From: an uncultured Desulfobacteraceae bacterium
GTDB lineage: Bacteria; Desulfobacterota; Desulfobacteria; Desulfobacterales; UBA5852
Assembly: GCA_913060875.1 (NCBI GenBank)
Contig: CAJXSL010000002.1
Span: 310,001-374,000, forward strand
Length of the DNA: 64,000 bases
Direction: 5' to 3'
Made by a program: the position numbers and the translations under genes. The first letter of the stretch is position 1, and the number at the start of each line of letters is the position of its first letter. This document shows positions 11,676-15,192 of the stretch, piece after piece. The notes under the pieces are model-generated. The model was not told the DNA's origin and made no database searches. It worked only from the letters and a program-made list of their open reading frames with translations.

Positions 11676-13718
11676 CTAGTTCGGCAATAGACAGGCTTCC
11701 GGTGCCCGGCGAAGGGTTCGGGAGGCAACCGGGCGGCCGAAGCCGATGCGAAACAGCATGACATGACCTTCCGGGCTGTCGGGCGCCACATCGAATATGT
11801 CGTGATACGATTGCCAGAGGGAACAGAGCATGCGTTTCTGCTTGGCGTCGAATGCATCCAGTTGCCTCATCCGCCAACGCATCCAGAACAAGGTAATCGC
11901 CGTCATGGGCTGGAAAGAGAGCCCCATTCGTGTGGCTGTCAGCCACAGCCGTTCTAAAGCACGGCCGCCCTCGACAATGGTTGTGGAGCGGGTATCCGGA
12001 CATTTGAGCAACCCCACCAATGGGGCTTGCACAATCCCCTGATAGGAAATCAGGGGCACAATGCGGGACAGCCCCAAGCGGTTGAAGACACGCATGGCCG
12101 ACCACGTCCGGGTCATCCGCAAGAACCACTCCCCCCCCCTTCCGGCCTCGAGGTTCTTCAGCGGAAAGCCGTCTCGTGCCTGGCTTGCCGCTTTATCGTC
12201 AAACCGGATCATCCGTATGAGATGTTCATGCAAGGCACGCGTTTCCACCCGGATCCGGTCCGCCCGATAGACCAGTCCGGCAATGGTACGGATAGCCTCT
12301 TTGGTGTGGTAAAGCTTCAGTTCCATCTCCGGATAACAATCCAGACTCCGGATAAGACCGATCATCCATTCCGGCGGCAAACCGCGCCGCCGGTAGCGGG
12401 TCCGGTTGGTATGACGCTCCCAGATAAACCGCTGCAAGGGGTCTTCTTCATTGTCCGACCGGTGAAAACGAACGGTCGCCAGGCAATCTGGGGATTTTCC
12501 TTCCGGTCGATAGGCCACTTCGCCTTCCAGGCCATAACGGCTGGCCGCCAGCAAAAGGTTTTCCAGGGCCGCACCACAGGCAATTTTCGACGCCACCTGA
12601 TTGACATTGAAAAGCGAGTTGTCCGCATCCGGCCGCAGCAGCACATCGATGCGGTTCTTCCCGGTGATGAAATTCCACGGCTGGCAGTTGTCACCCGATG
12701 GCGCCTGGATGGCCGCACGCAGGATATAATCCATAACGGCATCGGGAATGTCCCCCCCCGCATCCGTGACCAGGGGCGATCGGGGCGGCTCGGCGGCAAC
12801 TGCGTTCGACCCTTTGCGCAGCGCCCTTTTCATGGCCTTGAGTTTGAGCCTCTGCAGCGGGTTGCGATTGCCGAAAGGTAAATATCCCTGGTGGAAACGG
12901 CGGGCATAGGGATCATATTGAGCATAGTGGGGGACCGGACGCATGCCTTCATGTCCCAGCAAAATGCGCAGCACTTCGGCAGCCGCGGTCGCGGCACAGT
13001 TTTCACAGCCGGCCCCCAGGGAAGGGCCCTGACGCTTGGCCCAATCGATGGAACGGGGATCAATATAGCGCCGATGCGTCGCCCGGGGCGCCAGTCCGGC
13101 CATGAAGGCCAGCAGTTGCTCGTCCAGGGTCATGTCATCGTGGATATCGAAATAGTCATCAAAGCGCATGCCGCGATCGGGCGCGAACACCAGCATGGCC
13201 GCGCTATAGCCCAGAGGACCGGCCGTGACCACAGGTATGCGCTTTGTCCGGGCCTGATTGAATACCATACGGCGGATCTCAAAGTTAAAAAAATCAATAC
13301 CGTCCACGACAATGTCGACGCCATCCAGAAAGGCATGCACATTCTGTTGGGCAACCCCTTGGGGAAACGCCTGGATCTCAAGATAGGGGTTGATGTTCAT
13401 GGCTTCTTCCATCATCACATCGAGTTTGGAACGGCCCAGATGGCTGGTTTTGGCGCCATACTGCCGGTTCAGATTGACGGGCTCGAAAACATCAAAATCC
13501 GCCAGATGAAAACAGCCGATCCCCAGTCGGGCCAGGGTCACCAGGTGGGCGCCACCGACCCCGCCCAATCCGGGAATAGCCACTGTGGCATTCATCAGAC
13601 GGTCCTGTTCCGCGGCGGTAATGAAACCGATATTGCGTGACAAGGCCTCCTCGAGGTAGTGGTATTTATTTTGGTAGCCAAGTGCCCGCAATTTAGCGAC
13701 ATGGGCGAGATGATCCAT
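11676..13718 (-). CDS. E1/ThiF-like adenylyltransferase fused to nitroreductase (Rv1355c-like)
   Basis: This 680-residue protein joins two enzyme folds. Residues about 25-290 are an E1/ThiF/MoeB domain with nucleotide loop GLGGVGG (50-56), DFDVFEPVNLNRQYG (74-88) containing the ATP-binding Asp and Arg, and VVDGIDFF (137-144). Residues about 325-660 are nitroreductase-like, starting YILRAAIQAPSGDNCQPW, the FMN-binding entry. The pairing resembles mycobacterial Rv1355c. E1 domains adenylate or cyclodehydrate peptides, and nitroreductases such as McbC oxidise azolines; whether this fusion does either is inference. The start has GGGAGA ten bases upstream. An acyltransferase-Crp fusion lies upstream on the same strand, separated only by a repeat element. 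Confidence 0.82.
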   Translation of the reverse strand: MDHLAHVAKLRALGYQNKYHYLEEALSRNIGFITAAEQDRLMNATVAIPGLGGVGGAHLVTLARLGIGCFHLADFDVFEPVNLNRQYGAKTSHLGRSKLDVMMEEAMNINPYLEIQAFPQGVAQQNVHAFLDGVDIVVDGIDFFNFEIRRMVFNQARTKRIPVVTAGPLGYSAAMLVFAPDRGMRFDDYFDIHDDMTLDEQLLAFMAGLAPRATHRRYIDPRSIDWAKRQGPSLGAGCENCAATAAAEVLRILLGHEGMRPVPHYAQYDPYARRFHQGYLPFGNRNPLQRLKLKAMKRALRKGSNAVAAEPPRSPLVTDAGGDIPDAVMDYILRAAIQAPSGDNCQPWNFITGKNRIDVLLRPDADNSLFNVNQVASKIACGAALENLLLAASRYGLEGEVAYRPEGKSPDCLATVRFHRSDNEEDPLQRFIWERHTNRTRYRRRGLPPEWMIGLIRSLDCYPEMELKLYHTKEAIRTIAGLVYRADRIRVETRALHEHLIRMIRFDDKAASQARDGFPLKNLEAGRGGEWFLRMTRTWSAMRVFNRLGLSRIVPLISYQGIVQAPLVGLLKCPDTRSTTIVEGGRALERLWLTATRMGLSFQPMTAITLFWMRWRMRQLDAFDAKQKRMLCSLWQSYHDIFDVAPDSPEGHVMLFRIGFGRPVASRTLRRAPEACLLPN

Positions 13719-13755
13719 GGCAGCACGGTCTCCCTCTGTAGACTCCGTTTATCCT

Positions 13756-13967
13756 AGTGCCCATCCATAAGTGGCATCTTTCGGCCCCTGGCGGCGTTCT
13801 CGCTCGTTTTCAATCCTCGCAATAGCGGACTATTCCTCCGGTTGACACCCACCGACCGGAATCGATTAGATGGGAAGTCCCGTCAAGCGGGATTATATCC
13901 CGCGGAGCGGGAAATCGCGCTCGGGCCTTGCCAGGAACCAAAACCTACCATTTATGGACGGATCCTA
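13756..13967. repeat. Terminal-inverted-repeat element, copy B (about 212 bp, inverted, expanded)
   Basis: This copy lies in the opposite orientation to copies A, C and D: it begins AGTGCCCATCCATAAGTGG and ends CCATTTATGGACGG. Outer blocks match the family (GGCCCCTGGCGGCG, GGGCCTTGCCAGGAACC). The centre is longer than in the 144-bp copies and carries extra short inverted repeats (GTCAAGCGGGATTATATCCCGC). It sits between the acyltransferase-Crp gene and the E1-nitroreductase gene, so it could affect read-through between them. Confidence 0.75.
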
Positions 13968-14031
13968 TCCTAACAAGACGAATGGGCAGAAAAAGCCCCA
14001 TCTGCGCCCCGTTAGCCAGCCCCCTTTTCCT

Positions 14032-15192
14032 TCAGGGGGCTCCAATCTGGGCCAGAAGCCTCTCCTGATTACTCACGGCCAGGGACCCGCTGTCGTGATC
14101 GGCAGTTATCCATTGCGCCTGTTCCCAGGCCGACATGATATCCTGAAAGGCATGGCCCCCGATGCCGCATTGGCGGCTCAGCCATTGCATATCCACGGGG
14201 AGTTTACCGCGGTGAGAGCTGTCCACCAGAATACGGGCCGCCAGAGAGGCGGGCGGATTGATGTGGCGCCCTTCGATTTGGTGCCGCAAACGGGTGCCCA
14301 GCAATTCCAGCACACGCAAGGCGCGCTCCTGGTTCGAACGCAGTTGCTGCAACAGTTCTTTGCGGGTCCAAACCATCACATCGGCCTCAACGGAGTTGGC
14401 GACCACCGTGGATGTCCGCGGTCCGCCATCCAGCAGCGAAAGTTCGCCGAATATCTGCCCCGGTCCGAACATGGTGCTCATGGCCGACGGGGCACCGACG
14501 GGGCCTTCCTCCATCACGCGAACCGATCCCCGCATCATTAAAAAGGCCTCCTCGCCGATTTCGCCCTTCCGGATGATGACTTCATCCTTGCGGTAAATGC
14601 GGCGCTCGTTGGAATCGGCCAGGATCATGCCGGAAGGATCATCAAATGTCTCCCGGCTTCCGGGAGGCAGCTTGCTAAGATCGACGTGGACGGGCAGCAT
14701 GGCCACTTGTAGTGCCTCGCATTGGAATTCAGGCCCGATGGCATGCGCCCCCACGATTCGCGAAAGCATGGGCAGGACGGGTGGGTGCAGGGTTGCCAGG
14801 ACGTGGCGGGCGCCATTTTTGCGCATTTCCCGAAAGCACATCTTGATGAGACCAATCACCAGACCGGGATGCCGTCGGTATTTCCGCGTGCAGCATAGCC
14901 ATCCGATGCACGCACAGGGGTCGTTCAGAGTCTGGCGAAAGGGGGTAAAATCGTAAAAATCGTCCGCCGGAAAGCCCACATGATTTTCCATGATCACCCG
15001 AATGCTGCCAATGGGTTGGGAATCATCGTAGGCCAGAACATTGATGGTCTCCGCAAAACTGTCGTACTGATCTATGATGTGATCGTCCGAACTTTGAAAA
15101 CGCCGCTCTTCTTCCACAAACACCTGGTGGCGGAAACGATAAACTTCAGCCTTCGCGGCGCTCGACTGTGCAATTTTCAATCGAATCGGCAT
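14032..15192 (-). CDS. FeeM-like N-acyltransferase fused to a Crp-type cNMP-binding, winged-helix regulator
   Basis: The 386-residue protein has an N-terminal GNAT/autoinducer-synthase-like domain (residues about 1-185): YRFRHQVFVEEERRF, DQYDSFAETINVLAYDD, GSIRVI and a helical core. This matches N-acyl amino acid synthase (FeeM) and PEP-CTERM-associated acyltransferases. A cyclic-nucleotide-binding fold follows (about 200-320; FGELSLLDGGPRTSTV with the conserved PR), then a Crp-like winged helix (about 325-386; WLSRQCGIGGHAFQDIM). It may make an acyl product and regulate genes in response to a ligand. Start ATG 15190-15192 has AGGAGG eight bases upstream. The E1-nitroreductase fusion follows on the same strand. 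Confidence 0.78.
   Translation of the reverse strand: MPIRLKIAQSSAAKAEVYRFRHQVFVEEERRFQSSDDHIIDQYDSFAETINVLAYDDSQPIGSIRVIMENHVGFPADDFYDFTPFRQTLNDPCACIGWLCCTRKYRRHPGLVIGLIKMCFREMRKNGARHVLATLHPPVLPMLSRIVGAHAIGPEFQCEALQVAMLPVHVDLSKLPPGSRETFDDPSGMILADSNERRIYRKDEVIIRKGEIGEEAFLMMRGSVRVMEEGPVGAPSAMSTMFGPGQIFGELSLLDGGPRTSTVVANSVEADVMVWTRKELLQQLRSNQERALRVLELLGTRLRHQIEGRHINPPASLAARILVDSSHRGKLPVDMQWLSRQCGIGGHAFQDIMSAWEQAQWITADHDSGSLAVSNQERLLAQIGAP

Follow-up and report, generated by a model that had tools for sequence, protein, structure and literature searches.

This study concerns a pair of adjacent genes of an uncultured Desulfobacteraceae bacterium (GenBank assembly GCA_913060875.1), which lie in a 64,000-nucleotide stretch of contig CAJXSL010000002.1 (positions 310,001 to 374,000, referred to as the window; coordinates count from its first letter). 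Both genes are encoded on the reverse strand. The upstream gene (14032-15192(-)) encodes a protein of 386 amino acids (aa), in which a FeeM-like N-acyltransferase of the N-acyl amino acid synthase (NAS) type is followed in the same chain by a cyclic-nucleotide-binding domain (cNBD) of the Crp type and a predicted winged helix, and the downstream gene (11676-13718(-)) encodes a 680-aa fusion of a ThiF/E1 domain and a nitroreductase-type flavin-dependent oxidase (FDO). They are called oxzA-like and oxzB-like here. The ATG of the oxzA-like gene at 15192 is preceded by AGAGGAGG, and the two genes are separated by an intergenic stretch of 313 bp (13719-14031), whereas in the relatives the two frames overlap or almost touch. 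A scan for promoters and terminators gave counts not above those of shuffled sequence.

In the oxzB-like protein, Pfam assigns ThiF to residues 27-276 (PF00899, E 2.8e-45; 12891-13640(-)) and nitroreductase from residue 324 onwards (PF00881, E 5.3e-10; 11703-12749(-)). The NCBIfam model PRK14851 scores 833 bits over residues 1-674, under its cut-off of 1170, the Rv1355c family scores 276 bits, likewise under its cut-off, and an Acg-family FDO match covers residues 332-619 with 166 bits. The alignment revealed the P-loop GLGGVGG, the NxNRQ motif and the flavin mononucleotide (FMN) loop APSGDN, which is part of APSGDNCQPW. Predicted residues for adenylation are Asp142 together with N84-R85 and K98. 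Asp142 aligns with the Asp of Mycobacterium simulans TrzS that was taken as counterpart of Msmeg D217, the mapping being made via the M. simulans protein and not via the Msmeg sequence, and R488/R490 align near the counterpart of TrzS R540. The ThiF domain is closer to a TyzB-like protein of M. simulans (44% identity over residues 22-307, 249 bits) than to TrzS of this species (41% over 26-168, 66 bits). By these assignments, domain content and order match those of OxzB and TrzS.

The acyltransferase domain of the oxzA-like protein (about residues 1-190; 14623-15192(-)) matches FeeM (PF21926) with E 1.1e-19 and 71 bits at a cut-off of 27. A structure model of the protein (me2720f9ad079) has a predicted local distance difference test (pLDDT) value of 67.9. 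In a VIA fold comparison, which covers residues 1-182 only and is silent on the cNBD, the best matches include FeeM and acyl-homoserine lactone (AHL) synthases, with FeeM 2g0b reached at Z 17.3 over 170 aligned residues and a root-mean-square deviation (rmsd) of 3.1. R21, D41, D44 and R65 are invariant among the closest sequences, and we presume for them the roles known from AHL synthases. The cNBD (14332-14601(-)) is identified by PF00027 with E 1.4e-15 and carries the cassette FGELSLLDGGPRTSTVVA; the phosphate-binding cassette FGELSLLDGGPRT is intact. G249-E250 and R259-T260 are invariant in the six closest sequences, and for the Glu and Arg residues in the cassette we presume the roles known from Crp-type receptors. 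The C-terminal winged helix (14035-14250(-)), probably a degenerate Crp-type helix-turn-helix (HTH), was placed from the secondary structure of the model, and its recognition-helix residues differ from those of CRP; the Pfam scan of the protein found no HTH family. Foldseek aligns cNBD and C-terminus to full-length CRPs with an rmsd of about 12 Å and with TM-scores that do not exceed about 0.25 (query) or about 0.45 (target), so that the modelled domain packing is not trustworthy.

An initial annotation, made from the DNA letters alone, had described an E1-nitroreductase fusion next to an acyltransferase-Crp gene. This is confirmed by the Pfam and NCBIfam matches, and the two genes are neighbours, in unchanged order, in five named relatives (L046, L047, L048, L049 and L062, labelled Deltaproteobacteria or Desulfobacterales/Desulfobacteraceae), i.e., in six genomes with the window. 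As adjacency and order are kept in these five relatives, the pairing is not due to chance. The nearest relative is 75% identical across the full ThiF-FDO protein. Among 146 genomes of the order, five have a near-full-length match to the oxzA-like protein, and four of these five belong to the family of the host. For a broader view, 37 named loci from one scan of species genomes were surveyed with profiles built in this analysis. ThiF gave a strong match in 36 of them, 29 of which also have the oxidase, and in 18 of these 29 a FeeM-like acyltransferase lies within 3 kb; with this recurrent neighbour the proposal withstands the refutation that the initial annotation had set for it, namely a lack of recurrent association of the two genes elsewhere. 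Moreover, one locus (L152, 8084-10717) encodes acyltransferase, ThiF and oxidase in one chain of 877 aa, which ties the acyltransferase clade of the window to ThiF-FDO proteins.

It was shown that N-acyl oxazolones are made from a free amino acid by an amino acid N-acyltransferase, an ATP-using ThiF cyclase and an O2-using FDO of the nitroreductase superfamily (PMC10404671, PMC12856293; these and all further papers are cited from excerpts), and ring closure and desaturation by TrzS were demonstrated in vitro (PMC12856293). On the grounds of sequence and analogy we assign a probability of roughly 0.6 to the reading that the two genes constitute an oxazolone pathway under allosteric control by a cyclic nucleotide. 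Judged from its fold and family, the acyltransferase domain would use acyl-CoA or an acylated acyl carrier protein to acylate the amino group of an amino acid in its free form, probably an aromatic one, and cyclic AMP (cAMP) or cyclic GMP on the fused Crp-type domain would switch this step. By analogy to TrzS, the ThiF domain would then adenylate the carboxylate with ATP and close the 5-oxazolone ring, and the FMN domain would desaturate the Cα/Cβ bond, a step for which the known enzymes use O2 as acceptor. The homologous pathway starts from a free amino acid and has no need of a precursor peptide, which explains why the initial annotation found none; no search aimed at short open reading frames was made.

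Adenylation, oxidation and N-acylation, the three steps that the initial annotation suggested for a small substrate, agree with this published pathway, and the annotation's naming of the family also holds, as TrzS is Rv1355c and the nearest NCBIfam families are PRK14851 and Rv1355c (below cut-offs). The pathway had further been called possibly new; the same parts already make N-acyl oxazolones in OxzA/OxzB and, in mycobacteria, in TyzACB and TrzA/TrzS. The pathway type is known, and what is new here is the regulatory architecture and the acyltransferase without the catalytic glutamate discussed below. OxzA/OxzB of Pseudoalteromonas rubra likewise place an N-acyltransferase gene beside a ThiF-FDO fusion gene; their products, tyrazolones and phenazolones, were shown, while for the window we infer product, amino acid and ligand, and the excerpts describe no cyclic-nucleotide domain for OxzA, unlike the acyltransferase of the window (via PMC10404671, PMC12856293). 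TrzA/TrzS (Rv1356c/Rv1355c) share the fusion of ThiF and flavin oxidase, the key Asp position and the two-gene operon, with Arg residues of the window protein aligning near the key Arg; the window differs in a ThiF domain nearer to TyzB, an acyltransferase fused to a cNBD and a host that is a probable sulfate reducer (PMC12856293). TyzACB unites the same three functions, but with separate genes for cyclase and oxidase and, in the excerpts, no fused sensor, and the window differs in both respects (PMC10404671).

As to the ligand, the intact cassette and the six class III nucleotide cyclase domains that score over cut-off in the host make a cyclic nucleotide plausible. A precedent is NasP, an N-acyl amino acid synthase reported to be activated by cAMP (Clardy and Brady 2007, as cited in PMC4897644 and PMC5643525); in the excerpts NasP is not reported as part of an oxazolone pathway. 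The product of the pathway had been proposed initially as the signal for the Crp domain; given the intact cassette and the NasP precedent, a cyclic nucleotide is the more likely ligand. Nas343 and Nas354 also join a NAS to a second-messenger receptor, which in these NAS-PilZ fusions is a PilZ domain for cyclic di-GMP (c-di-GMP); both are described as biosurfactant synthases outside a pathway operon and keep the catalytic glutamate, whereas the window protein has a cNBD and has lost it (PMC4897644). The principle of second-messenger control is therefore known in pieces; searches of the Creative Commons-licensed PMC literature brought up no cNBD-fused acyltransferase in an oxazolone locus and no paper that unites these two elements, though an earlier report elsewhere is possible.

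Several observations weigh against an oxazolone pathway under cyclic-nucleotide control. The catalytic Glu of NAS enzymes (reference positions Glu95 in FeeM and Glu103 in Nas354) is found in 67 of 76 aligned acyltransferase domains, in a column located by means of a conserved motif, [A/G]E[IV]S, with FeeM itself outside the alignment; the window protein has Cys95 instead (codon 14908-14910(-)), and its relatives have Tyr, Cys, Ala or Ser. As exchange of this Glu to Ala abolished the activity of Nas354 (PMC4897644), the domain may be inactive, may work independently of that Glu or by another mechanism, or may have another job, and because the Glu is absent we call it NAS-like and not a proven NAS. 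In the ThiF-FDO alignment the counterpart of TrzS Gln651 is ambiguous and not clearly conserved. Moreover, the module is rare: in a sample of 395 genomes spanning the phylum, the oxzA-like protein was found in a single one (E 1e-25), which is the host itself. In 11 of the 29 named ThiF and FDO loci no acyltransferase was detected within 8 kb, some of these loci lying at contig edges and the acyltransferase profile possibly missing distant members, and a Pfam scan of ten selected neighbouring open reading frames in six such loci (L051, L054, L056, L063, L067 and L074) yielded no acyltransferase; these frames include an MMPL transporter, an ABC ATPase, a TetR regulator, MoaE and a P450. Finally, the characterised oxidases need O2 and the host is probably anaerobic, its dsrA (631 bits) making a sulfate reducer likely, though the genome also has three subunits of cytochrome bd oxidase, with which it can meet O2. 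The full ThiF-FDO protein also occurs in named relatives including Desulfacinum and Salidesulfovibrio, which we take to be anaerobic sulfate reducers. Under O2 limitation the cyclised saturated intermediate remained with TrzS (PMC12856293), and in a probably anaerobic host another electron acceptor, or oxidation confined to O2 exposure, may apply.

The nine of 76 domains without Glu are the clade of the window, the triple fusion L152 and a cNBD-FeeM fusion from a Nitrospirae metagenome-assembled genome (MAG; L078). All eight cNBD-fused acyltransferase domains lack the Glu, the PilZ-fused ones all keep it, and in the window clade an [IL]GW[LF]C motif replaces the Glu motif. In a tree of the 76 domains the Desulfobacterota cNBD fusions group as a single clade (support 0.84), to which the triple fusion is sister (1.00), and L078 is placed elsewhere with weak support (0.19). 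The loss of Glu across the clade, together with the full Crp-like cNBD and the modelled winged helix, would also suit a trigger enzyme, in which a catalytically dead acyltransferase-like domain senses an acyl amino acid, the Crp-type module controls transcription and the substrate of the ThiF-FDO protein comes from elsewhere. It is consistent with this that in one genome (G211, locus L153) the acyltransferase-cNBD gene stands by an ordinary FeeM gene that retains the Glu, and the genome gave no ThiF-FDO match. We nevertheless regard a trigger enzyme as unlikely: the helix positions that presumably correspond to the DNA-contacting Arg-Glu of CRP are unconserved, CRP-type DNA sites show no excess in the window (13 found versus 17.6 expected), and the Glu-less acyltransferase also occurs in the one-chain fusion L152, which suggests that substrate is still supplied. 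Retention beside ThiF-FDO, this one-chain fusion and conservation at further positions of the family speak against a loss of acyltransferase function.

The end products might alternatively be open-chain N-acyl dehydroamino acids, as in the stieleriacine, kyonggic acid and thalassotalic acid clusters, with a transient ThiF step. These clusters have the three functions in common with the window, and oxazolones were not observed among their products (excerpts of PMC12479983); oxazolones also hydrolyse easily (PMC12856293). In every cluster described in these excerpts, however, the ThiF and nitroreductase genes are separate (PMC12479983). The fused ThiF-FDO architecture of the window is that of the oxazolone-forming OxzB and TrzS, and we consider open-chain end products to be improbable. 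Peptide azole maturation, to which the initial annotation had drawn a parallel and in which E1 and nitroreductase-family domains act together in McbB/McbC, is highly improbable, since the best family matches are to the PRK14851/Rv1355c group with Rv1355c as a shown tryptazolone synthase, the family scans gave no match to a leader-binding domain, and the acyltransferase partner and the free amino acid as substrate of the published pathway fit oxazolone formation instead.

Fusions of FeeM-type acyltransferases to second-messenger receptors recur. In the Bdellovibrionota, the phylum to which the genome of locus L079 belongs, FeeM matches at E 0.001 are present in 61 of 114 genomes and over cut-off in 36 of 114. 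Among 15 long FeeM genes that were scanned singly by Pfam (L079, L221-L229, L231-L233, L235 and L236), seven have a C-terminal PilZ domain over cut-off (L079, L221, L222, L223, L224, L231 and L233), two an N-terminal one, one a C-terminal one below cut-off (L232), and in five none was detected; Pfam found no PilZ in L225-L229, which are similar in length to the PilZ-fused genes, and L240, scanned in addition, has FeeM alone. In three cases the FeeM-PilZ gene lies beside ThiF and oxidase genes (L079 6662-7993, L221 5327-6706, L224 6325-7599), and these loci are apparently oxazolone-type and wired to c-di-GMP. The pair of motifs RxxxR and [DN]xSxxG, which we take to mark c-di-GMP binding, is complete in L223, L231 and the Pfam-negative L225; ten of 13 proteins examined lack one or both at that spacing, so that most of these proteins cannot be counted on to bind c-di-GMP. 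Moreover, c-di-GMP turnover genes flank trzAS in M. tuberculosis (PMC12856293). Second-messenger-receptor fusions of the first enzyme apparently arose repeatedly and separately. A Planctomycetota MAG of 6.8 Mb (G340, with loci L056 and L241-L249) contains 34 FeeM-type matches, and in the five long FeeM chains examined there (L242-L246) the additional domains are FAD oxidase, TPR or others, none of them a second-messenger receptor.

Some neighbouring genes are recorded as separate observations. The gene P0003 (15506-17188(-)), upstream of the pair, keeps this position in the five genomes where it is visible (window and L046-L049). It was rejected as a third pathway gene, as 58 of the 146 genomes in the order have it, against 12 of 146 with a ThiF/FDO match at 1e-40; because it is widespread in the order and relatives of the pair (P0001/P0002) are missing at all 14 P0003 loci fetched elsewhere, it is treated as a mere neighbour. 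The P0003 protein of 560 aa belongs to a widespread unnamed family that is strongly conserved in those 58 genomes. Pfam, searched up to E 10, NCBIfam and the PDB sequences all gave no match, and its structure model is poor (pLDDT 40.9); a GalT/HIT-like reading of its motif HQQVHQQ was a guess only and was discarded. An MMPL/RND-type exporter adjoins the ThiF-oxidase genes in L054 (10461-12785, by Pfam) and L007 (3431-4927, from its translation) and recalls mmpL9 beside tyz in M. tuberculosis (PMC10404671). At L153 (6174-8376) the acyltransferase-cNBD gene faces the ordinary FeeM gene on the opposite strand, and no ThiF-FDO match was obtained at 1e-40. In L080 (4956-6221) a methyltransferase-FeeM fusion follows directly after a ThiF gene, on a contig labelled Nanoarchaeota, for which a binning error is possible.

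What oxazolones do in the cell is described as an unsolved question (PMC12856293); a stress- or surface-linked signal or a membrane-active lipid is most likely. It is a doubtful but conceivable idea that in an anaerobic sulfate reducer, owing to an O2-dependent last step, the finished oxazolone would form only when a high second-messenger level coincides with O2, so that the pathway would act as a chemical AND gate for oxygen stress. For the enzyme family, the Glu-less clade constitutes a natural test of NAS catalysis. Furthermore, the receptor fusions together with the c-di-GMP turnover genes by trzAS point to second-messenger control of oxazolone output, and such control would make the question of when oxazolones are made a testable one.

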